DNA from: Asterochloris sp. CNOR1
Lineage: Eukaryota > Chlorophyta > Trebouxiophyceae > Trebouxiales > Trebouxiaceae
NCBI GenBank assembly: GCA_963969365.1
Contig: OZ017748.1
Span: 3,469,001-3,533,000 of the forward strand
Direction: 5' to 3'
Length of the DNA stretch: 64,000 nt
In this document: in pieces, positions 36,001 to 64,000 of the stretch
Layout: each line of letters starts with the position of its first letter
How positions within the stretch are numbered: the stretch's first letter is position 1
Notes under the pieces: model-generated
The model's input: the letters and a program-made list of their open reading frames with translations, nothing else
Databases searched by the model: none
What the model was told of the DNA's origin: nothing
Translations under genes and position numbers: made by a program

Positions 36001-38204
36001 AGCCGATCAATCATACAGCATGGTGCTATCAAGCTGGCACCATTGCTGGGTTGCTGTCTGACGCCTGGTCTGTCTATCTGCTTGCAAAATGTGGCAATGA
36101 ATACCTCTGGCAATCGTCTATACGCGGCCGTGCAGGTGGGGACTCCCCCCTCATCAGTGTCTCGCTTCTCCAGCGCCTTCTCAGCACAAGCAAGCATCCG
36201 AAAGTTAAGCAGCGAGCACTCCAGCTGCTCACGGCAACCCTCAGCGCAGGTCAGCAGCAGCTTGAGCAGGCCAGCCGAAGACCCTTGGGGACTCTGTCTC
36301 AGGAAATATTTGCCCCGCAAGCTCAGAGCAATGGCAGTGCTTTGAAGGCTCGGGAAGCATGTTTTCAGAGCTCATGTCTGGCCAGAGCTGAGCCACAGCA
36401 GGGGCTCAAGACAGCACTCGACTTGTGGTCTGCTGTCAGGTGGCTGGCAGGGGAGAGAGGGCACCCGGGTGTGCAGCGGGCGGCGGTTTGCTGCCTGGGC
36501 AGGGCTGCGGGGGCAGTCACAGCATACATGGGGCTGTTGTTGCAGCACCAGAGGCAGAGTGTCAACTCACAGGGCAGCCAGGCACTGCCCACACAAGGCA
36601 AGCTGTGGCCACCAGAGGCTGTGCCACAGCCAGCTGAGCCCGCCTTCACCAACCAGGGAGACAGCACACCAGGGGAGTCTGCCAGCAGCCAGCCGCCCGC
36701 TGCTGTTGCTGCACAACCCGGCGATGCAGGCCTGCAAGGGGCTGAAGGAGCACTGGACATCACAATCGCCCTGCTGGGCAGCACTTCTCAGCCAGAGCAG
36801 TTGGTGGACCTGCGGCTGGCCACAGGGCAGGCTCTTGGGACCGCAGGTGAGGTGCTGTTCTGCTCTATGGCCTTAAGTTTCAGCGCAGCGGCCAAGCAAC
36901 ATGCAGCACAAGACTGTACCCTTGCTCCCGACCTGACACGAGCGCAATGGTGTCAAGATCACCCACGGTCCTGCTGTCTGCTGACATCAAGGTGACATCA
37001 TCCCATGGCAGTGGCATCTGGCTCCTGCTGCAATGCCTGCAGGGGTGCTTGTGGAGATCACGTCTGAGCAGGCTGCTGTACGGACACGGGGCGTGAGGGC
37101 CTGGGCACTGGTAGTCCGCCTTCTGGAGGATGACTCTGCGGAGGCAAGCGAGCTCAAGCGCCACGTCAACTTTGCGCTGGTGTCCTGCACTTGCTGAGCC
37201 AGTGTGCTGCGTCTTGTGAGCCATGTTACCTCTGTAGGAGGACAAACAAGAACTGCTCTGAGCTCTGAAAAGTGACCAGGCTCATTGGGGGCCTGAGCTC
37301 CACTGGTTCCGTCTGCTTGCGCTCCAGTGCTGCCAGCCTGCATCTCAGGTCCACTCTTTTCTTGAGCTTGCCATGCAGCCACCTCATCTGCCTTTTCACC
37401 TCCAAGCATGTCGTTCAGGTGCGCAGTGCAGCAGCAGCCACTGCCGGCGCAGCACTTGAGCAGCTGCAAGTGCCATCAGCCGCTGCCGCAATCCACGTGG
37501 AGCATGCTCTGCGCCTGGCAGTGCAGCTGGTGGGCGCTTGTGCACCGCACTGCGCTGCAGCATGGCAGCAGCTGATGGACTGGGTGTTGCCAACAGGTCA
37601 GGTGCTGCCAGATCACGGTGCTCTGCACGTGGTGTCGGCTGCCTCTGCCGCGGCTGCTGAGGGCAGCAGCAATGGGGTGCCAACCCCTGCAGCCGGAAGG
37701 AGCGCTGCTGGCAGCACCTGTCAGCAGCTGGGTGCCGCTGTGAGGGCCAGCGGCCGAGTGTTCGACCATGAGGCAGACAATCAGCATGAGGAGCCCCTGC
37801 TGCTAGCACAGCTGGCTTCACAGCAGCTGGTGGAGGCTGCTCAGCAGGCGCCTGTGAGCACCGGGTCTGACGGTGGCAGTTCTGAAGTAGGACCTTGCTC
37901 AGCTGAGAGCAGAAGCAAAGGACTGAACCTTGCGCCACTTAGAGCTGCAGTCCAAAGCTGGAGCCAGCATTTGAGGGGCCTGCTGCCTGAAACAGACTCC
38001 AGTGTGTCTGAGTGGTGTACGAGTGGCTCTCAGAGACAGGCCAGGCTGCAGCATGCAAGAGCCCTGCTTGCCGCGCAATGTGTAGCTTCCTGCTCCCTCT
38101 CATCGCCAGGTCCCACCCCTGACAGTGCGATCGGCCCCTTCCTGGAGCACACGCTTCTGTCCTTGCCCAGGATCTCATCGTCTAGTCATGCTGCAAGCTC
38201 ATGA
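23574..38204 (+). CDS. THADA: THADA / TRM732-type armadillo-like protein (DUF2428), tRNA 2'-O-methylation cofactor
   Basis: Giant alpha-helical repeat protein; yeast Trm732 and human THADA partner the Trm7/FTSJ1 methyltransferase for 2'-O-methylation of tRNA position 32. Many exons over 14.6 kb; supported ones include 23574-23753, 23864-24171, 24318-24549, 25204-25400, 25543-25719, 37043-37143 and the last, 37419-38204. Conserved DUF2428 core: VRRSAGLPYAFVALF (about 33116), VHALNIIRMAFSN (about 33510), WEVRNAASLAFTSLLVRLLG (about 33828), LFARCPGLHAFLLAEL (about 34197), VHGTLLQLKTLL (about 35322). The C-terminus has RTRGVRAWALVVRLLEDD spliced through a GC-AG intron (37144-37418) to VRSAAAATAGAAL, then VFDHEADNQHEE, ending SSSHAASS. 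A 13-codon CAG run gives poly-Gln at 27036. The 3' end from 36358 on is unit 0 of the 5S array. Central and C-terminal identity is firm; some early exons remain unresolved. Confidence 0.85.
25702..25766 (+). repeat. Adjacent duplicate of a THADA exon end with its donor
   Basis: The exon end atgaaggccctgctgcag followed by a gcaagc donor (25702-25725) is repeated almost at once, with diverged flanks, as atgaaggcactgctgcag plus gcatgt (25741-25764). Confidence 0.65.
25862..26100 (+). repeat. Two-copy tandem repeat of about 115 bp in a THADA intron
   Basis: Copy 1 starts cacagcagccctgccagct (about 25866) and copy 2 gggcagcagccctgctagct (about 25979). Both contain a gag-ct-ga segment, atggctggt and cccagcagcat-tgctgtcctga, in the same order. 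They are diverged and non-coding in my model. Confidence 0.65.
27036..27074 (+). repeat. (CAG)13 trinucleotide run encoding polyglutamine in THADA
   Basis: Thirteen uninterrupted CAG codons inside a THADA exon, between a leucine-rich helix (FLDLVHL) and TGSASEAG. It reads in the THADA frame as poly-Gln. Confidence 0.85.
29895..30012 (+). repeat. Second copy of a THADA donor region in the following intron
   Basis: The exon end cgtgaggctgatgcag plus gtgtgctggg (about 29900-29925) recurs about 100 bp downstream as tgtgaggctgatgcag plus gtgggctggg (29990-30013), with ccctgctgtga also present after each copy. Confidence 0.7.
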
Positions 38205-39408
38205 AACACACTGCTCTCTGCATCAGCCACCGTCAGAGCTGTGCTGGCCCTCCAGTTTTGAGCACTGGCCACACGTTCAACGTGCGCAGTGGAGAGGTGG
38301 AGCAAAGCCACAGCTCTGAAGACAAAACGTCGGAGGCCCCTCTTGGGCACAGCCCAAGAAGGCCATCCCGGATCTCAGGGCCACCAGGCGGCACAGCAAG
38401 GCGTGAACACCCCATCCAGGCAGCGCCTTGGTACCGTCAGACAGGTGGCACTGCGGGAGATGCCTCAACGCCTCGAAGTACAGGAGCTGAGGCAGCTTCA
38501 CACCATGCTGCCTCTGACTGCTCGACGCATCTGTACCTGCCTGATGCCTCTGCTTGGCGTTCTACGACTGTATGAAAGAGGCAGCAAGACGACTCAGGAC
38601 TGTGCACACCACCTGACTCTGCTGTCCAGACCCTGTGTTGGGGTGCAGCCACCACGGAGTCGAAGTCGCACCGGGCCATTGTAGTGTGGGGCTCAAGGGA
38701 AGCAGCTCCGCGCTGATGGTGGATTTGTGTCGCTTCCTTTCTGCATGCAGTGCGGGGCATGACGCAGACAGGCTGTAGTCAGTCGGGGAGTCGTCTCCTG
38801 GCGCCCCTGCTCCTCACAACCTGCCAGGCCGGTGGAGGGCGGAGCCGCTTGGTAGGGCCATCAGCAGCCTTCGTCTCCCACAGGCCCCAGCCCCAGATGG
38901 CTCCTGTGAGATGCCTGAGCAACCCGCCTGGAAGCGCCCTGATCGTGTGGCCGCCACCGGTGCGGCCCAACCTGCTGTCACGAGCAGCATCCGCTGTCAT
39001 TTCAGCGTGGCGCGGACCAACTTGGCTCGCCGAACGCCAGCGACACGCCCCGTCTTGTAGCTGAGCTCAGCAGAGCGGCAGCGGTCGCAGACCGGTGCAG
39101 GCCTGCTGCGTTTGGTGCCTTGGCTGATGTTGGTCGGCCTGGTGTGTCTCCACCACTCCCAACGGGCTTGGTCGACGTCTCCTTAGCAACAGACTGGGTG
39201 GTGTCGACTCGTCCCCTGATGACAGGCGCAGTCGTATGAGCACCTCATGGTGGAGACCTCAGGCCCTGCACATCTATGACCTTGTCAGGACCTCCGAGGT
39301 TGTCGAGGAGTGGGTCCTGGGCCTTTCTGGGGCGGTGTCGGTGCCAGGTCCTGGGCTCAGGCAAAAGCTTTGTGTAGCCAAGCCGTCAACATGAAACCTG
39401 GTCAGCCC
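38205..39408 (+). other. Spacer between THADA stop and first 5S gene (unit 0)
   Basis: 1.2 kb, GC-rich, present in every unit and nearly identical between unit 0 and the later units. It has several modest open frames (for example 38289-38684, 131 codons) with Arg/Pro/Ser-rich, low-information products and no recognisable domain; identity between units reflects homogenisation and is not evidence of coding. No tRNA, snRNA or second rRNA gene was recognised. Confidence 0.55.
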
Positions 39409-39528
39409 ATGCTACGGTCATACCATCCAGAATAACCCCGTTCTCGTCCGATCACGGAAGGCAAACTGGATTGGGCCAGATCAGTACTACGTTGGGTGAC
39501 CACGCGGGAATATCTGGTGCTGTAGCGT
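39409..39528 (+). rRNA. 5S ribosomal RNA (unit 0)
   Basis: Exactly 120 nt. The ends pair as helix I over nine positions (atgctacgg with ctgtagcgt). The internal RNA polymerase III control region is clear: ggaaggcaaactgg (box A area), gggccagatcagtact, and the box C block gttgggtgaccacgcgggaa. Helix II forms between ccatccag and ctggattgg with the usual bulge. A TTTT run (39528-39531) directly at the 3' end fits a Pol III terminator. Same strand as THADA, 1.2 kb after its stop. Confidence 0.96.
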
Positions 39529-39813
39529 TTTGCTCTTGACAGAGTGGGGTGGGGGGCCCTGCAAGGTGCACTTTGGCCATTGGCCCTGTTCCCGGGGCCA
39601 GGGTGAAGGGAGAGGAAGTGGCCAGCAATCTTCAGGGTATGGTTCCTCACAGGTGCAAGCGTCTGAGAGGGTGTCGTCGGCTGCACGAGGTTGGAGGAGA
39701 AGGCCGCCGGCGCAGAGACAGAGGAGGCTTGGCTGGGCACCTGCAGCGCTCCCACTCTTCCACCTCTATGACTTGCGGCGGCGCTGTGTGACAGTGCCAG
39801 CCGCACGGGGATC
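39529..39813 (+). other. Post-5S spacer of unit 0
   Basis: About 285 bp from the 5S terminator to the repeat junction, repeated in each unit. It is G-rich (gtggggtggggggccc) at its start. No gene recognised. Confidence 0.6.
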
Positions 39814-41428
39814 ATGTTTTCAGAGCCCATGTCTGGCCAGAGCTGAGCCGCAGCAGGGGCTCAAGGCAGCACCCGACTTGCGGTGTCAGGCGGCTGGCAG
39901 GGGAGAGAGGGCGCCCAGGTGTGCAGCTGCCCAGGCAGGGCTGCGGGGGCAGTCACAGCATACGTGAGGCTGCTGTTGCAGCACCAGAGGCAGGGTGTCG
40001 ACTCACAGGGCAGCCAAGCACTGCCCACACAAGGCAAGCTGTGGCCACCAGAGGCTGTGCCACAGCCGGCTCAGCCCGCCTTCACCAACCAGGGAGACAG
40101 CACACCAGGGGAGTCTGCCAGCAGCCAGCCGCCCGCTGCTGTTGCTGCACAACCCGGCACTGCAGTCCTGCAAGGGGCTGAAGAAGCACTGGATATCACA
40201 ATCGCCCTGCTGGGCAGCACTTCTCAGCCAGAGCAGTTGGTGGACCAGCGGCTGGCCACAGGGCAGGCTCTTGGGACCGCAGGTGAGGTGCTGTTCTGCT
40301 CTTGTATGGCCTGGCAGCTGCCATGCAACATGAAGCACAAGACTGTGCCCTTGCTGCCAACCTGACACGAGCGCAATGGTGTCAAGGCCACCCACAGTCT
40401 TGCTGTCTGCTGACATCAAGGTGACTTCCCAGGGCAGTGCCATTTGGCTCCTGCTGCAATGCCTGCTGGGCTGCTCGTGGAGGTCACGTCTGAGCAGGCT
40501 GCTGTACGGACACGGGGCGTGAGGGCCTGGGCACTGGTAGTCCGCCTTCTGGAGGATGACTCTGCGGAGGCAAGCGAGCTCAAGTCAACTTTGCGCTGGT
40601 GTCCTGCACTTGCTGAGCCAGTGTGCTGCGTCTTGTGAGCCATGTTACCTCTGTAGGAGGACAAACAAGAACTGCTCTGAGCTCTGGAAAGTAACCAGGC
40701 TCATTGGGGGCCTGAGCTCCACTGGTTCCGTCTGCTTGCGCTCCAGTGCTGCCAGCCTGCATCTCAGGTCCACTCTTTCCTTGAGCTTGCCATGCAGCCA
40801 CCTCATCTGCCTTTTCACCTCCAAGCATGTCGTTCAGGTGCGCAGTGCAGCAGCAGCCACTGCCGGCGCAGCACTTGAGCAGCTGCGAGTGCCATCAGCC
40901 GCTGCCGCAATCCACGTGGAGCATGCTCTGCGCCTGGCAGTGCAGCTGGTGGGCGCTTGTGCACCGCACTGCGCTGCAGCATGGCAGCAGCTGATGGACT
41001 GGGTGTTGCCAACAGGTCAGGTGCTGCCAGATCACGGTGCTCTGCACGTGGTGTCGGCTGCCTCTGCCGCGGCTGCTGAGGGCAGCAGCAATGGGGTGCC
41101 AACCCCTGCAGCCGGAAGGAGCGCTGCTGGCAGCACCTGTCAGCAGCTGGGTGCCGCTGTGAGGGCCAGCGGCCGAGTGTTCGACCATGAGGCAGACAAT
41201 CAGCATGAGGAGCCCCTGCTGCTAGCACAGCTGGCTCCACAGCAGCTGGTGGAGGCTGCTCAGCAGGCGCCTGTGAGCACCGGCTCTGACGGTGGCAGTT
41301 CTGAAGTAGGACCTTGCTCAGCTGAGAGCAGAAGCGAAGGACTGAACCTTGCGATCGGCCCCTTCCTGGAGCACACGCTTCTGTCCTTGCCCAGGATCTC
41401 ATCGTCTAGTCATGCTGCAAGCTCATGA
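39814..41428 (+). pseudogene. THADA 3' fragment, unit 1
   Basis: Copy of THADA from mid-exon to the stop. Relative to unit 0 it has lost 5 bp and 14 bp (counterparts of 36429-36433 and 36478-36491), which shifts the frame. The acceptor of the next exon is destroyed (ag to tg, at 40467). It also lacks 195 bp in the last exon, which leaves that exon open. It cannot encode the normal C-terminus; no start of its own is evident. Confidence 0.88.
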
Positions 41429-42632
41429 AACACACTGCTCTCTGCATCAGCCACCGTCAGAGCTGTGCTGGCCCTCCAGTTTTGAGCACTGGCCACACGT
41501 TCAACGTGCGCAGTGGAGAGGTGGAGCAAAGCCACAGCTCTGAAAACAAAACGTCGGAGGCCCCTCTTGGGCACAGCCCAAGAAGGCCATCCCGGATCTC
41601 AGGGCCACCAGGCGGCACAGCAAGGCGTGAACACCCCATCCAGGCAGCGCCTTGGTACCGTCAGACAGGTGGCACTGCGGGAGATGCCTCAACGCCTCGA
41701 AGTACAGGAGCTGAGGCAGCTTCACACCATGCTGCCTCTGACTGCTCGACGCATCTGTACCTGCCTGATGCCTCTGCTTGGCGTTCTACGACTGTATGAA
41801 AGAGGCAGCAAGACGACTCAGGACTGTGCACACCACCTGACTCTGCTGTCCAGACCCTGTGTTGGGGTGCAGCCACCACGGAGTCGAAGTCGCACCGGGC
41901 CATTGTAGTGTGGGGCTCAAGGGAAGCAGCTCCGCGCTGATGGTGGATTTGTGTCGCTTCCTTTCTGCATGCAGTGCGGGGCATGACGCAGACAGGCTGT
42001 AGTCAGTCGGGGAGTCGTCTCCTGGCGCCCCTGCTCCTCACAACCTGCCAGGCCGGTGGAGGGCGGAGCCGCTTGGTAGGGCCATCAGCAGCCTTCGTCT
42101 CCCACAGGCCCCAGCCCCAGATGGCTCCTGTGAGATGCCTGAGCAACCCGCCTGGAAGCGCCCTGATCGTGTGGCCGCCACCGGTGCGGCCCAACCTGCT
42201 GTCACGAGCAGCATCCGCTGTCATTTCAGCGTGGCGCGGACCAACTTGGCTCGCCGAACGCCAGCGACACGCCCCGTCTTGTAGCTGAGCTCAGCAGAGC
42301 GGCAGCGGTCGCAGACCGGTGCAGGCCTGCTGCGTTTGGTGCCTTGGCTGATGTTGGTCGGCCTGGTGTGTCTCCACCACTCCCAACGGGCTTGGTCGAC
42401 GTCTCCTTAGCAACAGACTGGGTGGTGTCGACTCGTCCCCTGATGACAGGCGCAGTCGTATGAGCACCTCATGGTGGAGACCTCAGGCCCTGCACATCTA
42501 TGACCTTGTCAGGACCTCCGAGGTTGTCGAGGAGTGGGTCCTGGGCCTTTCTGGGGCGGTGTCGGTGCCAGGTCCTGGGCTCAGGCAAAAGCTTTGTGTA
42601 GCCAAGCCGTCAACATGAAACCTGGTCAGCCC

Positions 42633-42752
42633 ATGCTACGGTCATACCATCCAGAATAACCCCGTTCTCGTCCGATCACGGAAGGCAAACTGGATTGGGC
42701 CAGATCAGTACTACGTTGGGTGACCACGCGGGAATATCTGGTGCTGTAGCGT
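42633..42752 (+). rRNA. 5S ribosomal RNA (unit 1)
   Basis: Same 120-nt gene as at 39409, with the TTTT terminator after it. Confidence 0.96.
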
Positions 42753-43037
42753 TTTGCTCTTGACAGAGTGGGGTGGGGGGCCCTGCAAGGTGCACTTTGG
42801 CCATTGGCCCTGTTCCCGGGGCCAGGGTGAAGGGAGAGGAAGTGGCCAGCAATCTTCAGGGTATGGTTCCTCACAGGTGCAAGCGTCTGAGAGGGTGTCG
42901 TCGGCTGCACGAGGTTGGAGGAGAAGGCCGCCGGCGCAGAGACAGAGGAGGCTTGGCTGGGCACCTGCAGCGCTCCCACTCTTCCACCTCTATGACTTGC
43001 GGCGGCGCTGTGTGACAGTGCCAGCCGCACGGGGATC

Positions 43038-44652
43038 ATGTTTTCAGAGCCCATGTCTGGCCAGAGCTGAGCCGCAGCAGGGGCTCAAGGCAGCACCCGA
43101 CTTGCGGTGTCAGGCGGCTGGCAGGGGAGAGAGGGCGCCCAGGTGTGCAGCTGCCCAGGCAGGGCTGCGGGGGCAGTCACAGCATACGTGAGGCTGCTGT
43201 TGCAGCACCAGAGGCAGGGTGTCGACTCACAGGGCAGCCAAGCACTGCCCACACAAGGCAAGCTGTGGCCACCAGAGGCTGTGCCACAGCCGGCTCAGCC
43301 CGCCTTCACCAACCAGGGAGACAGCACACCAGGGGAGTCTGCCAGCAGCCAGCCGCCCGCTGCTGTTGCTGCACAACCCGGCACTGCAGTCCTGCAAGGG
43401 GCTGAAGAAGCACTGGATATCACAATCGCCCTGCTGGGCAGCACTTCTCAGCCAGAGCAGTTGGTGGACCAGCGGCTGGCCACAGGGCAGGCTCTTGGGA
43501 CCGCAGGTGAGGTGCTGTTCTGCTCTTGTATGGCCTGGCAGCTGCCATGCAACATGAAGCACAAGACTGTGCCCTTGCTGCCAACCTGACACGAGCGCAA
43601 TGGTGTCAAGGCCACCCACAGTCTTGCTGTCTGCTGACATCAAGGTGACTTCCCAGGGCAGTGCCATTTGGCTCCTGCTGCAATGCCTGCTGGGCTGCTC
43701 GTGGAGGTCACGTCTGAGCAGGCTGCTGTACGGACACGGGGCGTGAGGGCCTGGGCACTGGTAGTCCGCCTTCTGGAGGATGACTCTGCGGAGGCAAGCG
43801 AGCTCAAGTCAACTTTGCGCTGGTGTCCTGCACTTGCTGAGCCAGTGTGCTGCGTCTTGTGAGCCATGTTACCTCTGTAGGAGGACAAACAAGAACTGCT
43901 CTGAGCTCTGGAAAGTAACCAGGCTCATTGGGGGCCTGAGCTCCACTGGTTCCGTCTGCTTGCGCTCCAGTGCTGCCAGCCTGCATCTCAGGTCCACTCT
44001 TTCCTTGAGCTTGCCATGCAGCCACCTCATCTGCCTTTTCACCTCCAAGCATGTCGTTCAGGTGCGCAGTGCAGCAGCAGCCACTGCCGGCGCAGCACTT
44101 GAGCAGCTGCGAGTGCCATCAGCCGCTGCCGCAATCCACGTGGAGCATGCTCTGCGCCTGGCAGTGCAGCTGGTGGGCGCTTGTGCACCGCACTGCGCTG
44201 CAGCATGGCAGCAGCTGATGGACTGGGTGTTGCCAACAGGTCAGGTGCTGCCAGATCACGGTGCTCTGCACGTGGTGTCGGCTGCCTCTGCCGCGGCTGC
44301 TGAGGGCAGCAGCAATGGGGTGCCAACCCCTGCAGCCGGAAGGAGCGCTGCTGGCAGCACCTGTCAGCAGCTGGGTGCCGCTGTGAGGGCCAGCGGCCGA
44401 GTGTTCGACCATGAGGCAGACAATCAGCATGAGGAGCCCCTGCTGCTAGCACAGCTGGCTCCACAGCAGCTGGTGGAGGCTGCTCAGCAGGCGCCTGTGA
44501 GCACCGGCTCTGACGGTGGCAGTTCTGAAGTAGGACCTTGCTCAGCTGAGAGCAGAAGCGAAGGACTGAACCTTGCGATCGGCCCCTTCCTGGAGCACAC
44601 GCTTCTGTCCTTGCCCAGGATCTCATCGTCTAGTCATGCTGCAAGCTCATGA
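43038..44652 (+). pseudogene. THADA 3' fragment, unit 2
   Basis: Same lesions as the unit 1 fragment. Confidence 0.88.
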
Positions 44653-45856
44653 AACACACTGCTCTCTGCATCAGCCACCGTCAGAGCTGTGCTGGCCCTC
44701 CAGTTTTGAGCACTGGCCACACGTTCAACGTGCGCAGTGGAGAGGTGGAGCAAAGCCACAGCTCTGAAAACAAAACGTCGGAGGCCCCTCTTGGGCACAG
44801 CCCAAGAAGGCCATCCCGGATCTCAGGGCCACCAGGCGGCACAGCAAGGCGTGAACACCCCATCCAGGCAGCGCCTTGGTACCGTCAGACAGGTGGCACT
44901 GCGGGAGATGCCTCAACGCCTCGAAGTACAGGAGCTGAGGCAGCTTCACACCATGCTGCCTCTGACTGCTCGACGCATCTGTACCTGCCTGATGCCTCTG
45001 CTTGGCGTTCTACGACTGTATGAAAGAGGCAGCAAGACGACTCAGGACTGTGCACACCACCTGACTCTGCTGTCCAGACCCTGTGTTGGGGTGCAGCCAC
45101 CACGGAGTCGAAGTCGCACCGGGCCATTGTAGTGTGGGGCTCAAGGGAAGCAGCTCCGCGCTGATGGTGGATTTGTGTCGCTTCCTTTCTGCATGCAGTG
45201 CGGGGCATGACGCAGACAGGCTGTAGTCAGTCGGGGAGTCGTCTCCTGGCGCCCCTGCTCCTCACAACCTGCCAGGCCGGTGGAGGGCGGAGCCGCTTGG
45301 TAGGGCCATCAGCAGCCTTCGTCTCCCACAGGCCCCAGCCCCAGATGGCTCCTGTGAGATGCCTGAGCAACCCGCCTGGAAGCGCCCTGATCGTGTGGCC
45401 GCCACCGGTGCGGCCCAACCTGCTGTCACGAGCAGCATCCGCTGTCATTTCAGCGTGGCGCGGACCAACTTGGCTCGCCGAACGCCAGCGACACGCCCCG
45501 TCTTGTAGCTGAGCTCAGCAGAGCGGCAGCGGTCGCAGACCGGTGCAGGCCTGCTGCGTTTGGTGCCTTGGCTGATGTTGGTCGGCCTGGTGTGTCTCCA
45601 CCACTCCCAACGGGCTTGGTCGACGTCTCCTTAGCAACAGACTGGGTGGTGTCGACTCGTCCCCTGATGACAGGCGCAGTCGTATGAGCACCTCATGGTG
45701 GAGACCTCAGGCCCTGCACATCTATGACCTTGTCAGGACCTCCGAGGTTGTCGAGGAGTGGGTCCTGGGCCTTTCTGGGGCGGTGTCGGTGCCAGGTCCT
45801 GGGCTCAGGCAAAAGCTTTGTGTAGCCAAGCCGTCAACATGAAACCTGGTCAGCCC

Positions 45857-45976
45857 ATGCTACGGTCATACCATCCAGAATAACCCCGTTCTCGTCCGAT
45901 CACGGAAGGCAAACTGGATTGGGCCAGATCAGTACTACGTTGGGTGACCACGCGGGAATATCTGGTGCTGTAGCGT
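45857..45976 (+). rRNA. 5S ribosomal RNA (unit 2)
   Basis: Same 120-nt gene and terminator as at 39409. Confidence 0.96.
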
Positions 45977-46261
45977 TTTGCTCTTGACAGAGTGGGGTGG
46001 GGGGCCCTGCAAGGTGCACTTTGGCCATTGGCCCTGTTCCCGGGGCCAGGGTGAAGGGAGAGGAAGTGGCCAGCAATCTTCAGGGTATGGTTCCTCACAG
46101 GTGCAAGCGTCTGAGAGGGTGTCGTCGGCTGCACGAGGTTGGAGGAGAAGGCCGCCGGCGCAGAGACAGAGGAGGCTTGGCTGGGCACCTGCAGCGCTCC
46201 CACTCTTCCACCTCTATGACTTGCGGCGGCGCTGTGTGACAGTGCCAGCCGCACGGGGATC

Positions 46262-47876
46262 ATGTTTTCAGAGCCCATGTCTGGCCAGAGCTGAGCCGCA
46301 GCAGGGGCTCAAGGCAGCACCCGACTTGCGGTGTCAGGCGGCTGGCAGGGGAGAGAGGGCGCCCAGGTGTGCAGCTGCCCAGGCAGGGCTGCGGGGGCAG
46401 TCACAGCATACGTGAGGCTGCTGTTGCAGCACCAGAGGCAGGGTGTCGACTCACAGGGCAGCCAAGCACTGCCCACACAAGGCAAGCTGTGGCCACCAGA
46501 GGCTGTGCCACAGCCGGCTCAGCCCGCCTTCACCAACCAGGGAGACAGCACACCAGGGGAGTCTGCCAGCAGCCAGCCGCCCGCTGCTGTTGCTGCACAA
46601 CCCGGCACTGCAGTCCTGCAAGGGGCTGAAGAAGCACTGGATATCACAATCGCCCTGCTGGGCAGCACTTCTCAGCCAGAGCAGTTGGTGGACCAGCGGC
46701 TGGCCACAGGGCAGGCTCTTGGGACCGCAGGTGAGGTGCTGTTCTGCTCTTGTATGGCCTGGCAGCTGCCATGCAACATGAAGCACAAGACTGTGCCCTT
46801 GCTGCCAACCTGACACGAGCGCAATGGTGTCAAGGCCACCCACAGTCTTGCTGTCTGCTGACATCAAGGTGACTTCCCAGGGCAGTGCCATTTGGCTCCT
46901 GCTGCAATGCCTGCTGGGCTGCTCGTGGAGGTCACGTCTGAGCAGGCTGCTGTACGGACACGGGGCGTGAGGGCCTGGGCACTGGTAGTCCGCCTTCTGG
47001 AGGATGACTCTGCGGAGGCAAGCGAGCTCAAGTCAACTTTGCGCTGGTGTCCTGCACTTGCTGAGCCAGTGTGCTGCGTCTTGTGAGCCATGTTACCTCT
47101 GTAGGAGGACAAACAAGAACTGCTCTGAGCTCTGGAAAGTGACCAGGCTCATTGGGGGCCTGAGCTCCACTGGTTCCGTCTGCTTGCGCTCCAGTGCTGC
47201 CAGCCTGCATCTCAGGTCCACTCTTTCCTTGAGCTTGCCATGCAGCCACCTCATCTGCCTTTTCACCTCCAAGCATGTCGTTCAGGTGCGCAGTGCAGCA
47301 GCAGCCACTGCCGGCGCAGCACTTGAGCAGCTGCGAGTGCCATCAGCCGCTGCCGCAATCCACGTGGAGCATGCTCTGCGCCTGGCAGTGCAGCTGGTGG
47401 GCGCTTGTGCACCGCACTGCGCTGCAGCATGGCAGCAGCTGATGGACTGGGTGTTGCCAACAGGTCAGGTGCTGCCAGATCACGGTGCTCTGCACGTGGT
47501 GTCGGCTGCCTCTGCCGCGGCTGCTGAGGGCAGCAGCAATGGGGTGCCAACCCCTGCAGCCGGAAGGAGCGCTGCTGGCAGCACCTGTCAGCAGCTGGGT
47601 GCCGCTGTGAGGGCCAGCGGCCGAGTGTTCGACCATGAGGCAGACAATCAGCATGAGGAGCCCCTGCTGCTAGCACAGCTGGCTCCACAGCAGCTGGTGG
47701 AGGCTGCTCAGCAGGCGCCTGTGAGCACCGGCTCTGACGGTGGCAGTTCTGAAGTAGGACCTTGCTCAGCTGAGAGCAGAAGCGAAGGACTGAACCTTGC
47801 GATCGGCCCCTTCCTGGAGCACACGCTTCTGTCCTTGCCCAGGATCTCATCGTCTAGTCATGCTGCAAGCTCATGA
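46262..47876 (+). pseudogene. THADA 3' fragment, unit 3
   Basis: Same lesions as the unit 1 fragment. Confidence 0.88.
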
Positions 47877-49080: not shown

Positions 49081-49200
49081 ATGCTACGGTCATACCATCC
49101 AGAATAACCCCGTTCTCGTCCGATCACGGAAGGCAAACTGGATTGGGCCAGATCAGTACTACGTTGGGTGACCACGCGGGAATATCTGGTGCTGTAGCGT
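49081..49200 (+). rRNA. 5S ribosomal RNA (unit 3)
   Basis: Same 120-nt gene and terminator as at 39409. Confidence 0.96.
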
Positions 49201-52304: not shown

Positions 52305-52424
52305 ATGCTACGGTCATACCATCCAGAATAACCCCGTTCTCGTCCGATCACGGAAGGCAAACTGGATTGGGCCAGATCAGTACTACGTTGGGTGACCACG
52401 CGGGAATATCTGGTGCTGTAGCGT
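52305..52424 (+). rRNA. 5S ribosomal RNA (unit 4)
   Basis: Same 120-nt gene and terminator as at 39409. Confidence 0.96.
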
Positions 52425-52709: not shown

Positions 52710-54324
52710 ATGTTTTCAGAGCCCATGTCTGGCCAGAGCTGAGCCGCAGCAGGGGCTCAAGGCAGCACCCGACTTGCGGTGTCAGGCGGCTGGCAGGGGA
52801 GAGAGGGCGCCCAGGTGTGCAGCTGCCCAGGCAGGGCTGCGGGGGCAGTCACAGCATACGTGAGGCTGCTGTTGCAGCACCAGAGGCAGGGTGTCGACTC
52901 ACAGGGCAGCCAAGCACTGCCCACACAAGGCAAGCTGTGGCCACCAGAGGCTGTGCCACAGCCGGCTCAGCCCGCCTTCACCAACCAGGGAGACAGCACA
53001 CCAGGGGAGTCTGCCAGCAGCCAGCCGCCCGCTGCTGTTGCTGCACAACCCGGCACTGCAGTCCTGCAAGGGGCTGAAGAAGCACTGGATATCACAATCG
53101 CCCTGCTGGGCAGCACTTCTCAGCCAGAGCAGTTGGTGGACCAGCGGCTGGCCACAGGGCAGGCTCTTGGGACCGCAGGTGAGGTGCTGTTCTGCTCTTG
53201 TATGGCCTGGCAGCTGCCATGCAACATGAAGCACAAGACTGTGCCCTTGCTGCCAACCTGACACGAGCGCAATGGTGTCAAGGCCACCCACAGTCTTGCT
53301 GTCTGCTGACATCAAGGTGACTTCCCAGGGCAGTGCCATTTGGCTCCTGCTGCAATGCCTGCTGGGCTGCTCGTGGAGGTCACGTCTGAGCAGGCTGCTG
53401 TACGGACACGGGGCGTGAGGGCCTGGGCACTGGTAGTCCGCCTTCTGGAGGATGACTCTGCGGAGGCAAGCGAGCTCAAGTCAACTTTGCGCTGGTGTCC
53501 TGCACTTGCTGAGCCAGTGTGCTGCGTCTTGTGAGCCATGTTACCTCTGTAGGAGGACAAACAAGAACTGCTCTGAGCTCTGGAAAGTGACCAGGCTCAT
53601 TGGGGGCCTGAGCTCCACTGGTTCCGTCTGCTTGCGCTCCAGTGCTGCCAGCCTGCATCTCAGGTCCACTCTTTCCTTGAGCTTGCCATGCAGCCACCTC
53701 ATCTGCCTTTTCACCTCCAAGCATGTCGTTCAGGTGCGCAGTGCAGCAGCAGCCACTGCCGGCGCAGCACTTGAGCAGCTGCGAGTGCCATCAGCCGCTG
53801 CCGCAATCCACGTGGAGCATGCTCTGCGCCTGGCAGTGCAGCTGGTGGGCGCTTGTGCACCGCACTGCGCTGCAGCATGGCAGCAGCTGATGGACTGGGT
53901 GTTGCCAACAGGTCAGGTGCTGCCAGATCACGGTGCTCTGCACGTGGTGTCGGCTGCCTCTGCCGCGGCTGCTGAGGGCAGCAGCAATGGGGTGCCAACC
54001 CCTGCAGCCGGAAGGAGCGCTGCTGGCAGCACCTGTCAGCAGCTGGGTGCCGCTGTGAGGGCCAGCGGCCGAGTGTTCGACCATGAGGCAGACAATCAGC
54101 ATGAGGAGCCCCTGCTGCTAGCACAGCTGGCTCCACAGCAGCTGGTGGAGGCTGCTCAGCAGGCGCCTGTGAGCACCGGCTCTGACGGTGGCAGTTCTGA
54201 AGTAGGACCTTGCTCAGCTGAGAGCAGAAGCGAAGGACTGAACCTTGCGATCGGCCCCTTCCTGGAGCACACGCTTCTGTCCTTGCCCAGGATCTCATCG
54301 TCTAGTCATGCTGCAAGCTCATGA
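52710..54324 (+). pseudogene. THADA 3' fragment, unit 5
   Basis: Same lesions as the unit 1 fragment. Confidence 0.88.
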
Positions 54325-55528
54325 AACACACTGCTCTCTGCATCAGCCACCGTCAGAGCTGTGCTGGCCCTCCAGTTTTGAGCACTGGCCACACGTTCAA
54401 CGTGCGCAGTGGAGAGGTGGAGCAAAGCCACAGCTCTGAAAACAAAACGTCGGAGGCCCCTCTTGGGCACAGCCCAAGAAGGCCATCCCGGATCTCAGGG
54501 CCACCAGGCGGCACAGCAAGGCGTGAACACCCCATCCAGGCAGCGCCTTGGTACCGTCAGACAGGTGGCACTGCGGGAGATGCCTCAACGCCTCGAAGTA
54601 CAGGAGCTGAGGCAGCTTCACACCATGCTGCCTCTGACTGCTCGACGCATCTGTACCTGCCTGATGCCTCTGCTTGGCGTTCTACGACTGTATGAAAGAG
54701 GCAGCAAGACGACTCAGGACTGTGCACACCACCTGACTCTGCTGTCCAGACCCTGTGTTGGGGTGCAGCCACCACGGAGTCGAAGTCGCACCGGGCCATT
54801 GTAGTGTGGGGCTCAAGGGAAGCAGCTCCGCGCTGATGGTGGATTTGTGTCGCTTCCTTTCTGCATGCAGTGCGGGGCATGACGCAGACAGGCTGTAGTC
54901 AGTCGGGGAGTCGTCTCCTGGCGCCCCTGCTCCTCACAACCTGCCAGGCCGGTGGAGGGCGGAGCCGCTTGGTAGGGCCATCAGCAGCCTTCGTCTCCCA
55001 CAGGCCCCAGCCCCAGATGGCTCCTGTGAGATGCCTGAGCAACCCGCCTGGAAGCGCCCTGATCGTGTGGCCGCCACCGGTGCGGCCCAACCTGCTGTCA
55101 CGAGCAGCATCCGCTGTCATTTCAGCGTGGCGCGGACCAACTTGGCTCGCCGAACGCCAGCGACACGCCCCGTCTTGTAGCTGAGCTCAGCAGAGCGGCA
55201 GCGGTCGCAGACCGGTGCAGGCCTGCTGCGTTTGGTGCCTTGGCTGATGTTGGTCGGCCTGGTGTGTCTCCACCACTCCCAACGGGCTTGGTCGACGTCT
55301 CCTTAGCAACAGACTGGGTGGTGTCGACTCGTCCCCTGATGACAGGCGCAGTCGTATGAGCACCTCATGGTGGAGACCTCAGGCCCTGCACATCTATGAC
55401 CTTGTCAGGACCTCCGAGGTTGTCGAGGAGTGGGTCCTGGGCCTTTCTGGGGCGGTGTCGGTGCCAGGTCCTGGGCTCAGGCAAAAGCTTTGTGTAGCCA
55501 AGCCGTCAACATGAAACCTGGTCAGCCC

Positions 55529-55648
55529 ATGCTACGGTCATACCATCCAGAATAACCCCGTTCTCGTCCGATCACGGAAGGCAAACTGGATTGGGCCAGA
55601 TCAGTACTACGTTGGGTGACCACGCGGGAATATCTGGTGCTGTAGCGT
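55529..55648 (+). rRNA. 5S ribosomal RNA (unit 5)
   Basis: Same 120-nt gene and terminator as at 39409. Confidence 0.96.
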
Positions 55649-55933
55649 TTTGCTCTTGACAGAGTGGGGTGGGGGGCCCTGCAAGGTGCACTTTGGCCAT
55701 TGGCCCTGTTCCCGGGGCCAGGGTGAAGGGAGAGGAAGTGGCCAGCAATCTTCAGGGTATGGTTCCTCACAGGTGCAAGCGTCTGAGAGGGTGTCGTCGG
55801 CTGCACGAGGTTGGAGGAGAAGGCCGCCGGCGCAGAGACAGAGGAGGCTTGGCTGGGCACCTGCAGCGCTCCCACTCTTCCACCTCTATGACTTGCGGCG
55901 GCGCTGTGTGACAGTGCCAGCCGCTCGGGGATC

Positions 55934-57562
55934 ATGTTTTCAGAGCCCATGTCTGGCCAGAGCTGAGCCGCAGCAGGGGCTCAAGGCAGCCCCCGACTTG
56001 CGGTGTCAGGCGGCTGGCAGGGGAGAGAGGGCGCCCAGGTGTGCAGCTGCCCAGGCAGGGCTGCGGGGGCAGTCACAGCATACGTGAGGCTGCTGTTGCA
56101 GCACCAGAGGCAGGGTGTCGACTCACAGGGCAGCCAAGCACTGCCCACACAAGGCAAGCTGTGGCCACCAGAGGCTGTGCCACAGCCGGCTCAGCCCGCC
56201 TTCACCAACCAGGGAGACAGCACACCAGGGGAGTCTGCCAGCAGCCAGCCGCCCGCTGCTGTTGCTGCACAACCCGGCACTGCAGTCCTGCAAGGGGCTG
56301 AAGAAGCACTGGATATCACAATCGCCCTGCTGGGCAGCACTTCTCAGCCAGAGCAGTTGGTGGACCAGCGGCTGGCCACAGGGCAGGCTCTTGGGACCGC
56401 AGGTGAGGTGCTGTTCTGCTCTTGTATGGCCTGGCAGCTGCCATGCAACATGAAGCACAAGACTGTGCCCTTGCTGCCAACCTGACACGAGCGCAATGGT
56501 GTCAAGGCCACCCACAGTCTTGCTGTCTGCTGACATCAAGGTGACTTCCCAGCTGTGACTTCCCAGGGCAGTGCCATTTGGCTCCTGCTGCAATGCCTGC
56601 TGGGCTGCTCGTGGAGGTCACGTCTGAGCAGGCTGCTGTACGGACACGGGGCGTGAGGGCCTGGGCACTGGTAGTCCGCCTTCTGGAGGATGACTCTGCG
56701 GAGGCAAGCGAGCTCAAGTCAACTTTGCGCTGGTGTCCTGCACTTGCTGAGCCAGTGTGCTGCGTCTTGTGAGCCATGTTACCTCTGTAGGAGGACAAAC
56801 AAGAACTGCTCTGAGCTCTGGAAAGTGACCAGGCTCATTGGGGGCCTGAGCTCCACTGGTTCCGTCTGCTTGCGCTCCAGTGCTGCCAGCCTGCATCTCA
56901 GGTCCACTCTTTCCTTGAGCTTGCCATGCAGCCACCTCATCTGCCTTTTCACCTCCAAGCATGTCGTTCAGGTGCGCAGTGCAGCAGCAGCCACTGCCGG
57001 CGCAGCACTTGAGCAGCTGCGAGTGCCATCAGCCGCTGCCGCAATCCACGTGGAGCATGCTCTGCGCCTGGCAGTGCAGCTGGTGGGCGCTTGTGCACCG
57101 CACTGCGCTGCAGCATGGCAGCAGCTGATGGACTGGGTGTTGCCAACAGGTCAGGTGCTGCCAGATCACGGTGCTCTGCACGTGGTGTCGGCTGCCTCTG
57201 CCGCGGCTGCTGAGGGCAGCAGCAATGGGGTGCCAACCCCTGCAGCCGGAAGGAGCGCTGCTGGCAGCACCTGTCAGCAGCTGGGTGCCGCTGTGAGGGC
57301 CAGCGGCCGAGTGTTCGACCATGAGGCAGACAATCAGCATGAGGAGCCCCTGCTGCTAGCACAGCTGGCTCCACAGCAGCTGGTGGAGGCTGCTCAGCAG
57401 GCGCCTGTGAGCACCGGCTCTGACGGTGGCAGTTCTGAAGTAGGACCTTGCTCAGCTGAGAGCAGAAGCGAAGGACTGAACCTTGCGATCGGCCCCTTCC
57501 TGGAGCACACGCTTCTGTCCTTGCCCAGGATCTCATCGTCTAGTCATGCTGCAAGCTCATGA
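55934..57562 (+). pseudogene. THADA 3' fragment, unit 6
   Basis: Same lesions as the unit 1 fragment, plus the 14-bp duplication just upstream of the lost acceptor. Confidence 0.88.
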
Positions 57563-58766
57563 AACACACTGCTCTCTGCATCAGCCACCGTCAGAGCTGT
57601 GCTGGCCCTCCAGTTTTGAGCACTGGCCACACGTTCAACGTGCGCAGTGGAGAGGTGGAGCAAAGCCACAGCTCTGAAAACAAAACGTCGGAGGCCCCTC
57701 TTGGGCACAGCCCAAGAAGGCCATCCCGGATCTCAGGGCCACCAGGCGGCACAGCAAGGCGTGAACACCCCATCCAGGCAGCGCCTTGGTACCGTCAGAC
57801 AGGTGGCACTGCGGGAGATGCCTCAACGCCTCGAAGTACAGGAGCTGAGGCAGCTTCACACCATGCTGCCTCTGACTGCTCGACGCATCTGTACCTGCCT
57901 GACGCCTCTGCTTGGCGTTCTACGACTGTATGAAAGAGGCAGCAAGACGACTCAGGACTGTGCACACCACCTGACTCTGCTGTCCAGACCCTGTGTTGGG
58001 GTGCAGCCACCACGGAGTCGAAGTCGCACCGGGCCATTGTAGTGTGGGGCTCAAGGGAAGCAGCTCCGCGCTGATGGTGGATTTGTGTCGCTTCCTTTCT
58101 GCATGCAGTGCGGGGCATGACGCAGACAGGCTGTAGTCAGTCGGGGAGTCGTCTCCTGGCGCCCCTGCTCCTCACAACCTGCCAGGCCGGTGGAGGGCGG
58201 AGCCGCTTGGTAGGGCCATCAGCAGCCTTCGTCTCCCACAGGCCCCAGCCCCAGATGGCTCCTGTGAGATGCCTGAGCAACCCGCCTGGAAGCGCCCTGA
58301 TCGTGTGGCCGCCACCGGTGCGGCCCAACCTGCTGTCACGAGCAGCATCCGCTGTCATTTCAGCGTGGCGCGGACCAACTTGGCTCGCCGAACGCCAGCG
58401 ACACGCCCCGTCTTGTAGCTGAGCTCAGCAGAGCGGCAGCGGTCGCAGACCGGTGCAGGCCTGCTGCGTTTGGTGCCTTGGCTGATGTTGGTCGGCCTGG
58501 TGTGTCTCCACCACTCCCAACGGGCTTGGTCGACGTCTCCTTAGCAACAGACTGGGTGGTGTCGACTCGTCCCCTGATGACAGGCGCAGTCGTATGAGCA
58601 CCTCATGGTGGAGACCTCAGGCCCTGCACATCTATGACCTTGTCAGGACCTCCGAGGTTGTCGAGGAGTGGGTCCTGGGCCTTTCTGGGGCGGTGTCGGT
58701 GCCAGGTCCTGGGCTCAGGCAAAAGCTTTGTGTAGCCAAGCCGTCAACATGAAACCTGGTCAGCCC

Positions 58767-58886
58767 ATGCTACGGTCATACCATCCAGAATAACCCCGTT
58801 CTCGTCCGATCACGGAAGGCAAACTGGATTGGGCCAGATCAGTACTACGTTGGGTGACCACGCGGGAATATCTGGTGCTGTAGCGT
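58767..58886 (+). rRNA. 5S ribosomal RNA (unit 6)
   Basis: Same 120-nt gene and terminator as at 39409. Confidence 0.96.
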
Positions 58887-59171
58887 TTTGCTCTTGACAG
58901 AGTGGGGTGGGGGGCCCTGCAAGGTGCACTTTGGCCATTGGCCCTGTTCCCGGGGCCAGGGTGAAGGGAGAGGAAGTGGCCAGCAATCTTCAGGGTATGG
59001 TTCCTCACAGGTGCAAGCGTCTGAGAGGGTGTCGTCGGCTGCACGAGGTTGGAGGAGAAGGCCGCCGGCGCAGAGACAGAGGAGGCTTGGCTGGGCACCT
59101 GCAGCGCTCCCACTCTTCCACCTCTATGACTTGCGGCGGCGCTGTGTGACAGTGCCAGCCGCTCGGGGATC

Positions 59172-60800
59172 ATGTTTTCAGAGCCCATGTCTGGCCAGAG
59201 CTGAGCCGCAGCAGGGGCTCAAGGCAGCACCCGACTTGCGGTGTCAGGCGGCTGGCAGGGGAGAGAGGGCGCCCAGGTGTGCAGCTGCCTAGGCAGGGCT
59301 GCGGGGGCAGTCACAGCATACGTGAGGCTGCTGTTGCAGCACCAGAGGCAGGGTGTCGACTCACAGGGCAGCCAAGCACTGCCCACACAAGGCAAGCTGT
59401 GGCCACCAGAGGCTGTGCCACAGCCGGCTCAGCCCGCCTTCACCAACCAGGGAGACAGCACACCAGGGGAGTCTGCCAGCAGCCAGCCGCCCGCTGCTGT
59501 TGCTGCACAACCCGGCACTGCAGTCCTGCAAGGGGCTGAAGAAGCACTGGATATCACAATCGCCCTGCTGGGCAGCACTTCTCAGCCAGAGCAGTTGGTG
59601 GACCAGCGGCTGGCCACAGGGCAGGCTCTTGGGACCGCAGGTGAGGTGCTGTTCTGCTCTTGTATGGCCTGGCAGCTGCCATGCAACATGAAGCACAAGA
59701 CTGTGCCCTTGCTGCCAACCTGACACGAGCGCAATGGTGTCAAGGCCACCCACAGTCTTGCTGTCTGCTGACATCAAGGTGACTTCCCAGCTGTGACTTC
59801 CCAGGGCAGTGCCATTTGGCTCCTGCTGCAATGCCTGCTGGGCTGCTCGTGGAGGTCACGTCTGAGCAGGCTGCTGTACGGACACGGGGCGTGAGGGCCT
59901 GGGCACTGGTAGTCCGCCTTCTGGAGGATGACTCTGCGGAGGCAAGCGAGCTCAAGTCAACTTTGCGCTGGTGTCCTGCACTTGCTGAGCCAGTGTGCTG
60001 CGTCTTGTGAGCCATGTTACCTCTGTAGGAGGACAAACAAGAACTGCTCTGAGCTCTGGAAAGTGACCAGGCTCATTGGGGGCCTGAGCTCCACTGGTTC
60101 CGTCTGCTTGCGCTCCAGTGCTGCCAGCCTGCATCTCAGGTCCACTCTTTCCTTGAGCTTGCCATGCAGCCACCTCATCTGCCTTTTCACCTCCAAGCAT
60201 GTCGTTCAGGTGCGCAGTGCAGCAGCAGCCACTGCCGGCGCAGCACTTGAGCAGCTGCGAGTGCCATCAGCCGCTGCCGCAATCCACGTGGAGCATGCTC
60301 TGCGCCTGGCAGTGCAGCTGGTGGGCGCTTGTGCACCGCACTGCGCTGCAGCATGGCAGCAGCTGATGGACTGGGTGTTGCCAACAGGTCAGGTGCTGCC
60401 AGATCACGGTGCTCTGCACGTGGTGTCGGCTGCCTCTGCCGCGGCTGCTGAGGGCAGCAGCAATGGGGTGCCAACCCCTGCAGCCGGAAGGAGCGCTGCT
60501 GGCAGCACCTGTCAGCAGCTGGGTGCCGCTGTGAGGGCCAGCGGCCGAGTGTTCGACCATGAGGCAGACAATCAGCATGAGGAGCCCCTGCTGCTAGCAC
60601 AGCTGGCTCCACAGCAGCTGGTGGAGGCTGCTCAGCAGGCGCCTGTGAGCACCGGCTCTGACGGTGGCAGTTCTGAAGTAGGACCTTGCTCAGCTGAGAG
60701 CAGAAGCGAAGGACTGAACCTTGCGATCGGCCCCTTCCTGGAGCACACGCTTCTGTCCTTGCCCAGGATCTCATCGTCTAGTCATGCTGCAAGCTCATGA
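59172..60800 (+). pseudogene. THADA 3' fragment, unit 7
   Basis: As unit 6. The private C-to-T at 59290 adds a stop (tag) in one frame. Confidence 0.88.
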
Positions 60801-62004
60801 AACACACTGCTCTCTGCATCAGCCACCGTCAGAGCTGTGCTGGCCCTCCAGTTTTGAGCACTGGCCACACGTTCAACGTGCGCAGTGGAGAGGTGGAGCA
60901 AAGCCACAGCTCTGAAAACAAAACGTCGGAGGCCCCTCTTGGGCACAGCCCAAGAAGGCCATCCCGGATCTCAGGGCCACCAGGCGGCACAGCAAGGCGT
61001 GAACACCCCATCCAGGCAGCGCCTTGGTACCGTCAGACAGGTGGCACTGCGGGAGATGCCTCAACGCCTCGAAGTACAGGAGCTGAGGCAGCTTCACACC
61101 ATGCTGCCTCTGACTGCTCGACGCATCTGTACCTGCCTGACGCCTCTGCTTGGCGTTCTACGACTGTATGAAAGAGGCAGCAAGACGACTCAGGACTGTG
61201 CACACCACCTGACTCTGCTGTCCAGACCCTGTGTTGGGGTGCAGCCACCACGGAGTCGAAGTCGCACCGGGCCATTGTAGTGTGGGGCTCAAGGGAAGCA
61301 GCTCCGCGCTGATGGTGGATTTGTGTCGCTTCCTTTCTGCATGCAGTGCGGGGCATGACGCAGACAGGCTGTAGTCAGTCGGGGAGTCGTCTCCTGGCGC
61401 CCCTGCTCCTCACAACCTGCCAGGCCGGTGGAGGGCGGAGCCGCTTGGTAGGGCCATCAGCAGCCTTCGTCTCCCACAGGCCCCAGCCCCAGATGGCTCC
61501 TGTGAGATGCCTGAGCAACCCGCCTGGAAGCGCCCTGATCGTGTGGCCGCCACCGGTGCGGCCCAACCTGCTGTCACGAGCAGCATCCGCTGTCATTTCA
61601 GCGTGGCGCGGACCAACTTGGCTCGCCGAACGCCAGCGACACGCCCCGTCTTGTAGCTGAGCTCAGCAGAGCGGCAGCGGTCGCAGACCGGTGCAGGCCT
61701 GCTGCGTTTGGTGCCTTGGCTGATGTTGGTCGGCCTGGTGTGTCTCCACCACTCCCAACGGGCTTGGTCGACGTCTCCTTAGCAACAGACTGGGTGGTGT
61801 CGACTCGTCCCCTGATGACAGGCGCAGTCGTATGAGCACCTCATGGTGGAGACCTCAGGCCCTGCACATCTATGACCTTGTCAGGACCTCCGAGGTTGTC
61901 GAGGAGTGGGTCCTGGGCCTTTCTGGGGCGGTGTCGGTGCCAGGTCCTGGGCTCAGGCAAAAGCTTTGTGTAGCCAAGCCGTCAACATGAAACCTGGTCA
62001 GCCC

Positions 62005-62124
62005 ATGCTACGGTCATACCATCCAGAATAACCCCGTTCTCGTCCGATCACGGAAGGCAAACTGGATTGGGCCAGATCAGTACTACGTTGGGTGACCACG
62101 CGGGAATATCTGGTGCTGTAGCGT
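62005..62124 (+). rRNA. 5S ribosomal RNA (unit 7)
   Basis: Same 120-nt gene and terminator as at 39409. Confidence 0.96.
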
Positions 62125-62409
62125 TTTGCTCTTGACAGAGTGGGGTGGGGGGCCCTGCAAGGTGCACTTTGGCCATTGGCCCTGTTCCCGGGGCCAGGGT
62201 GAAGGGAGAGGAAGTGGCCAGCAATCTTCAGGGTATGGTTCCTCACAGGTGCAAGCGTCTGAGAGGGTGTCGTCGGCTGCACGAGGTTGGAGGAGAAGGC
62301 CGCCGGCGCAGAGACAGAGGAGGCTTGGCTGGGCACCTGCAGCGCTCCCACTCTTCCACCTCTATGACTTGCGGCGGCGCTGTGTGACAGTGCCAGCCGC
62401 TCGGGGATC

Positions 62410-64000
62410 ATGTTTTCAGAGCCCATGTCTGGCCAGAGCTGAGCCGCAGCAGGGGCTCAAGGCAGCCCCCGACTTGCGGTGTCAGGCGGCTGGCAGGGGA
62501 GAGAGGGCGCCCAGGTGTGCAGCTGCCCAGGCAGGGCTGCGGGGGCAGTCACAGCATACGTGAGGCTGCTGTTGCAGCACCAGAGGCAGGGTGTCGACTC
62601 ACAGGGCAGCCAAGCACTGCCCACACAAGGCAAGCTGTGGCCACCAGAGGCTGTGCCACAGCCGGCTCAGCCCGCCTTCACCAACCAGGGAGACAGCACA
62701 CCAGGGGAGTCTGCCAGCAGCCAGCCGCCCGCTGCTGTTGCTGCACAACCCGGCACTGCAGTCCTGCAAGGGGCTGAAGAAGCACTGGATATCACAATCG
62801 CCCTGCTGGGCAGCACTTCTCAGCCAGAGCAGTTGGTGGACCAGCGGCTGGCCACAGGGCAGGCTCTTGGGACCGCAGGTGAGGTGCTGTTCTGCTCTTG
62901 TATGGCCTGGCAGCTGCCATGCAACATGAAGCACAAGACTGTGCCCTTGCTGCCAACCTGACACGAGCGCAATGGTGTCAAGGCCACCCACAGTCTTGCT
63001 GTCTGCTGACATCAAGGTGACTTCCCAGCTGTGACTTCCCAGGGCAGTGCCATTTGGCTCCTGCTGCAATGCCTGCTGGGCTGCTCGTGGAGGTCACGTC
63101 TGAGCAGGCTGCTGTACGGACACGGGGCGTGAGGGCCTGGGCACTGGTAGTCCGCCTTCTGGAGGATGACTCTGCGGAGGCAAGCGAGCTCAAGTCAACT
63201 TTGCGCTGGTGTCCTGCACTTGCTGAGCCAGTGTGCTGCGTCTTGTGAGCCATGTTACCTCTGTAGGAGGACAAACAAGAACTGCTCTGAGCTCTGGAAA
63301 GTGACCAGGCTCATTGGGGGCCTGAGCTCCACTGGTTCCGTCTGCTTGCGCTCCAGTGCTGCCAGCCTGCATCTCAGGTCCACTCTTTCCTTGAGCTTGC
63401 CATGCAGCCACCTCATCTGCCTTTTCACCTCCAAGCATGTCGTTCAGGTGCGCAGTGCAGCAGCAGCCACTGCCGGCGCAGCACTTGAGCAGCTGCGAGT
63501 GCCATCAGCCGCTGCCGCAATCCACGTGGAGCATGCTCTGCGCCTGGCAGTGCAGCTGGTGGGCGCTTGTGCACCGCACTGCGCTGCAGCATGGCAGCAG
63601 CTGATGGACTGGGTGTTGCCAACAGGTCAGGTGCTGCCAGATCACGGTGCTCTGCACGTGGTGTCGGCTGCCTCTGCCGCGGCTGCTGAGGGCAGCAGCA
63701 ATGGGGTGCCAACCCCTGCAGCCGGAAGGAGCGCTGCTGGCAGCACCTGTCAGCAGCTGGGTGCCGCTGTGAGGGCCAGCGGCCGAGTGTTCGACCATGA
63801 GGCAGACAATCAGCATGAGGAGCCCCTGCTGCTAGCACAGCTGGCTCCACAGCAGCTGGTGGAGGCTGCTCAGCAGGCGCCTGTGAGCACCGGCTCTGAC
63901 GGTGGCAGTTCTGAAGTAGGACCTTGCTCAGCTGAGAGCAGAAGCGAAGGACTGAACCTTGCGATCGGCCCCTTCCTGGAGCACACGCTTCTGTCCTTGC
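62410..64000 (+). repeat. Array unit 8 (cut by window edge)
   Basis: Has the 14-bp duplication (63017-63044) and gcagcccccg at its left end (62467), so it matches unit 6 rather than unit 7. It ends within the THADA fragment, before its 5S gene. Confidence 0.93.
62410..64000 (+). pseudogene. THADA 3' fragment, unit 8 (cut by window edge)
   Basis: Same lesions as unit 6 over the visible part. Confidence 0.85.

Follow-up and report, generated by a model that had tools for sequence, protein, structure and literature searches.

How does a 5S rRNA gene array come to carry the end of a protein-coding gene in its spacer, and can its founding still be read from the sequence? These questions are raised by a 64,000-nt stretch of contig OZ017748.1 (positions 3,469,001 to 3,533,000) of the green alga Asterochloris sp. 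CNOR1, hereafter called the window; contig coordinates, given as C3, become window coordinates when 3469000 is subtracted. The initial annotation had described eight 120-nt 5S genes in repeat units of about 3.2 kb, and a covariance search bore this out, as all eight genes match RF00001 over its full length with 98.9 bits (E 2.3e-20; gathering cut-off 38 bits). They are spaced 3224 or 3238 bp apart, and the gene length of 120 nt includes an A ahead of the model start that is present in 14 of 14 compared loci. 5S genes are, as a rule, transcribed by Pol III from internal promoters. TTTT lies immediately at the gene end in all 14 compared loci. A search of the 56.4-Mb assembly returned at least 37 5S matches (a lower bound, with 47 of 1936 first-look candidates scored), 13 of them elsewhere and 24 in a single run on one strand (C3:3508410-3588060), of which the first eight fall inside the window. 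With complete genes arranged head to tail at regular spacing, this is a tandem 5S rDNA array, roughly 80 kb long and continuing for 55 kb beyond the window.

At its left edge, the array adjoins the later part of a THADA/TRM732 gene, which we take as the live copy (Table 1). The exons upstream of the array match PF10350 (THADA/TRM732 DUF2428; 1e-13 and 1e-6) and PF25151 (Trm732 C-terminal TPR; 1.1e-10 and 2.8e-6), all four matches being above the cut-off and two of them by less than 2 bits. Searching the whole genome with PF10350 gave three matches, all within this gene. From the exon starting at 34165, where exon ends and phases were worked out by hand, the reading frame continues through GT-AG introns into the exons captured by the array and ends with a stop at 38204. 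The captured piece itself (35931-36992 and 37269-38201 searched) has no Pfam match above the cut-off, and the name THADA thus rests here on in-frame splice continuity. A PDB sequence search with the late THADA exons gave a chance match only (E 0.26).

Table 1. Positions of the THADA gene, the repeat units, and the 5S rRNA genes, in window coordinates
Feature	Position	Strand	Basis or remark
Later part of THADA/TRM732 gene, taken as live copy	32413..38204	+	PF10350 and PF25151 matches; exon borders and frames
THADA exons, approximate	32413-32577, 33010-33203, 33456-33590, 33790-33905	+	
THADA exons, exact ends	34165-34330, 34746-34959, 35323-35893, 36136-36846, 37043-37164, 37419-38204	+	Ends by hand
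Founding left breakpoint, inside THADA exon 36136-36846	36348..36359	+	Unit comparison
Unit 0	36348..39802	+	THADA end from founding breakpoint, spacer, first 5S gene and its 3' flank; THADA frame open
Array spacer	38557..39325 (approximate)	+	Unmatched in last (distal) unit; beyond the array, matched by the C7 copy alone
THADA fragment, unit 1	39803..41428 (about)	+	Comparison with unit 0
Unit 1, junction to junction as cut for comparison	39814..43037	+	3224 bp
Later junctions in the window	43038, 46262, 49486, 52710, 55934, 59172, 62410		
5S rRNA gene 1 (unit 0)	39409..39528	+	Covariance match 39410-39528, plus 5' A
5S rRNA gene 2	42633..42752	+	Covariance search
5S rRNA gene 3	45857..45976	+	Covariance search
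5S rRNA gene 4	49081..49200	+	Covariance search
5S rRNA gene 5	52305..52424	+	Covariance search
5S rRNA gene 6	55529..55648	+	Covariance search
5S rRNA gene 7	58767..58886	+	Covariance search
5S rRNA gene 8	62005..62124	+	Covariance search

The two ends of the array are informative about its origin. The repeat junction had been placed in mid-exon, at 36358 in the first unit and 39814 in the second; the mid-exon location holds, but the position moves about 10 bp to the left, to about 36348/39803, because 17 of 23 junctions and a displaced copy on contig C7 still match THADA there. The array closes at the far edge with a last 5S gene (C3:3587942-3588060) that has diverged (85.5 bits) and whose 3' flank matches the unit at 75% identity up to about 3588286, where the match ends at the repeat junction (222 bp from gene to junction in this copy, 274 bp in the units). 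Thus, THADA lacks a preceding 5S flank at the left edge, and the 5S flank lacks a following THADA sequence at the far edge, an arrangement that we read as the footprint of a tandem duplication reaching from mid-THADA to just past a 5S gene. This is the history the initial annotation had proposed, followed by amplification, and it predicts that the last 5S flank should match the unit only as far as the junction, as found at C3:3587942-3588286. We therefore consider it very probable that the array was founded by a THADA-to-5S tandem duplication with unrelated breakpoints and then multiplied to 24 5S genes, with the order of events read from a single genome.

The last unit also shows that this history needs at least one more rearrangement. 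Its last THADA exon has a private 264-bp deletion, and the similarity of this unit to the array continues until about 350 bp past the THADA stop codon, where a different spacer of 1.3 kb begins. Lying ahead of the last 5S gene (C3:3586560-3587840), this distal spacer has no relation to that of the array. Beyond the last 5S gene, a piece of 227 alignment columns resembles part of the distal spacer at 66% identity (E 1.3e-16), and next to it comes a more tentative 72-column match (69%, E 0.002) to the region upstream of the 5S gene and to the gene's first bases. As a control for the 227-column match, the distal query was shuffled three times, and none of the shuffled versions gave a match. A genome search, for which a repeat as weak as the 227-column one is too faint to be reported, found no source of the distal spacer elsewhere. 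The stretch beyond the last 5S gene is possibly the remnant of an older 5S repeat, a weak candidate judged from sequence similarity and not recognised as 5S by Rfam, since a search of the distal stretch at E values up to 1 reported just the two full 5S genes. If so, the array may have been founded at a site where a small 5S cluster in partial decay already lay, with one of the two spacers being a replacement. About 1.5 kb beyond the flank of the last 5S gene, a short stretch has a weak RRM match below the family cut-off.

The same distal repeats would also fit a history in which an older 5S array already lay downstream of THADA, and a THADA fragment recombined into one of its units, which then replaced the others. 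We regard this as unlikely, because the captured THADA sequence joins the real gene without a break at the left edge, in the same order and on the same strand, and because the similarity of the last unit extends past the stop codon, as the duplication of a gene end would produce. Moreover, a single candidate remnant is all that was seen of such an array, and Rfam, at E values up to 1, is silent on it. Founding by tandem duplication thus remains our preferred reading.

What the captured fragment has become is seen by comparing unit 1 with unit 0. The initial annotation had attributed about 1.6 kb, or half of every spacer, to THADA, in agreement with the 1.63 of 3.10 kb (52%) measured in unit 1. 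Relative to unit 0, the first captured exon of unit 1 has lost 5 and 14 bp and the second 7 bp, all of them frame-breaking deletions, and the last has an in-frame deletion of 195 bp. The 5-, 14-, and 7-bp deletions are also present in the last unit of the array, and at these deletion sites the 22 units compared show no indel differences among themselves. The units therefore do not each hold an intact partner gene, and the THADA sequence captured in them is most likely pseudogene filler that lacks a promoter. It is very unlikely that the repeated ends are functional, for example as alternative gene ends or in the regulation of THADA: the last captured exon is indeed open in unit 1 (ORF 40541-41428) and differs from unit 0 by only 4 changes in 591 aligned sites, but two of the three captured exons are frame-broken, and the near-identity extends into intron and spacer, pointing to recent exchange rather than to protein constraint.

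Such exchange appears to involve the live gene as well. Between units 0 and 1, we counted 43 differences in 755 aligned sites at 36346-37145, 7 in 778 at 37146-37945, and 1 in 1600 at 38146-39745. The contrast between the first two intervals (Fisher's p = 5.7e-8) is a description rather than a fair test, as the border was picked after viewing the profile. Each part includes an intron (36847-37042 in the high-difference part and 37165-37418 in the low-difference part), so protein selection does not explain the step, while exchange with the array does. From about 37146 onward, unit 0 is nearly identical to the other units, except for the 195-bp segment that they lack, and it is thus not an untouched ancestor. 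Judged from these similarities, the last exons of the live THADA gene show signs of sequence exchange with the array, in either direction. Tentatively, and at somewhat less than an even chance, these exons (about 260 codons) may have been drawn from the array or kept in step with it by exchange; if true, the end of a protein would be evolving jointly with ribosomal DNA.

Between the first and the last repeat junction, the array comprises 22 units, 21 of which measure 3222, 3224, or 3238 bp, whereas the remaining one is 8058 bp long and split by an inserted Ty3-type element. These units are homogenised: the 5S gene sequence is identical in all 22, and the complete set has 24 variable characters, 12 of them informative (the count skips the 12 leading alignment columns, in which unit 19 borders on the inserted element). 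Adjacent units differ by a mean of 2.76 characters compared with 4.71 for chance order, and none of 10000 permutations gave a value as low, a pattern that agrees with unequal exchange acting locally and argues against an invented array. The variants partly form ordered blocks, such as a 14-bp insertion in units 6-8 and a 17-bp insertion in units 16-17, and the divergence seen in the edge units is absent from the interior ones. The element in unit 19 (C3 about 3566932-3571760), an LTR retroelement whose frames lie on the opposite strand, about 300 bp downstream of a 5S gene, has gag, protease, reverse transcriptase, RNase H, integrase, and chromodomain matches; its end repeats of 202 bp are identical, which suggests a recent insertion.

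A displaced piece of the array is found on contig C7 (C7:1066066-1070326). At 4261 bp, it is a little over one unit long and includes a 5S gene identical to that of the array, followed by a short second copy of the 5S 3' end, and it is 98% like the units over the first-half THADA part. This copy has the 5- and 14-bp deletions and a 1-bp insertion (net 18) and is without the 7-bp deletion, and it retains the 195-bp segment. As unit 0 keeps this segment too, the simplest reading is that the 195-bp deletion arose later and swept the interior of the array, although the C7 copy may instead stem from a unit without the deletion, at a time when units of both kinds existed side by side. Assembling near-identical units is difficult, and the real copy number may differ, but that they are an assembly artefact of a one- or two-copy locus is highly improbable given the variable characters in partly ordered blocks, the unit that holds an LTR element, the displaced copy on another contig, and a sequence free of Ns.

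Taken as a sequence of events, THADA would originally have been followed by a same-strand 5S gene, then possibly by the remnant of another 5S repeat, and lastly by an RRM-like gene. A segment from the middle of a THADA exon to a little past the 5S gene would have been duplicated in tandem, an event for which the breakpoints are visible in the assembly. Unequal exchange and gene conversion, to which the variant blocks point, may then have raised the number of 5S genes to 24 and spread changes such as the 195-bp deletion across the units. The full THADA gene at the left edge stays open and would have swapped last-exon sequence with the array.

Outside the array, the 13 additional 5S matches comprise the one in the C7 piece, a weak one on C20 (45.6 bits), and 11 full-length genes on 7 contigs. 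In these full-length loci, at least 11 in number, the similarity reported to the array unit is confined to roughly the gene. Three of the genes, on C5 (1218627, 1236793, and 1246734), lie within about 28 kb; they have flanks in common that the array does not share, and the third shows 6 differences from the array gene. The C20 match (C20:95843-95953) and two further sequences (C4:3192992 and C4:3202236; 72% identity) are weak or partial 5S-like stretches, perhaps 5S-derived pseudogenes. In a search for shared promoter sequences within 100 bp upstream of the gene (11 loci outside array-type sequence, 22 comparisons), the locus at C18:1256655 has a 16-mer about 50 bp upstream of the 5S gene that is alike at 14 of 16 positions and lies at nearly the same distance as in the array. 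Matches as good occurred in 12 of 300 shuffles against the array and, with the distal copy as the reference, in 1 of 300; the best results after these were 18 and 40 of 300. With 22 comparisons at these rates, we claim no promoter element, and the 16-mer may reflect such an element, a common origin, or coincidence.

5S arrays, scattered 5S genes, and concerted evolution are already known. How arrays originate from scattered genes is usually deduced from finished arrays, whereas here the two founding breakpoints and the parent gene occur in one assembly together with diverged units at the edges, a displaced and seemingly pre-deletion copy, and scattered 5S genes, and the birth of an array thus becomes testable step by step in close relatives. 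In addition, the homogenisation of the repeats appears to reach the coding end of a neighbouring gene. Among the papers listed in a literature search over titles and the starts of abstracts, thin for subscription journals, none describes a 5S spacer made from a mid-exon protein-gene fragment with both founding breakpoints readable, and none pairs "5S rDNA" with "THADA"; both results are weak evidence of absence.

Several known systems share single features with this locus. For microbial eukaryotes, PMC6562748, which cites Torres-Machorro 2010 and Drouin and Tsang 2012, describes rRNA genes linked to other genes. These resemble the present array in that 5S shares its repeat unit with the sequence of another gene; the partner here, however, is no intact repeated gene but a truncated piece, broken in frame, of a gene that was found once. 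PMC8961926 mentions the protein gene TAR1 in yeast rDNA, likewise a protein-coding sequence within an rDNA cluster, whereas the coding sequence here is a broken fragment of the neighbouring gene and lies in a 5S-only array. In the tandem 5S rDNA cluster of C. elegans, the units carry SNP and indel variants, and unique flanks delimit the cluster (PMC8961926), as in Asterochloris, where in contrast a protein-gene fragment makes up half of the spacer and continues into the full gene at one edge. Finally, the green alga Auxenochlorella has 16 or 17 standalone, dispersed 5S genes per haplotype (preprint PMC12633428). Full 5S genes with unrelated flanks are dispersed in the same manner over at least 11 loci on 7 contigs in the genome studied here, in which, unlike in Auxenochlorella, one locus has been amplified to 24 copies.
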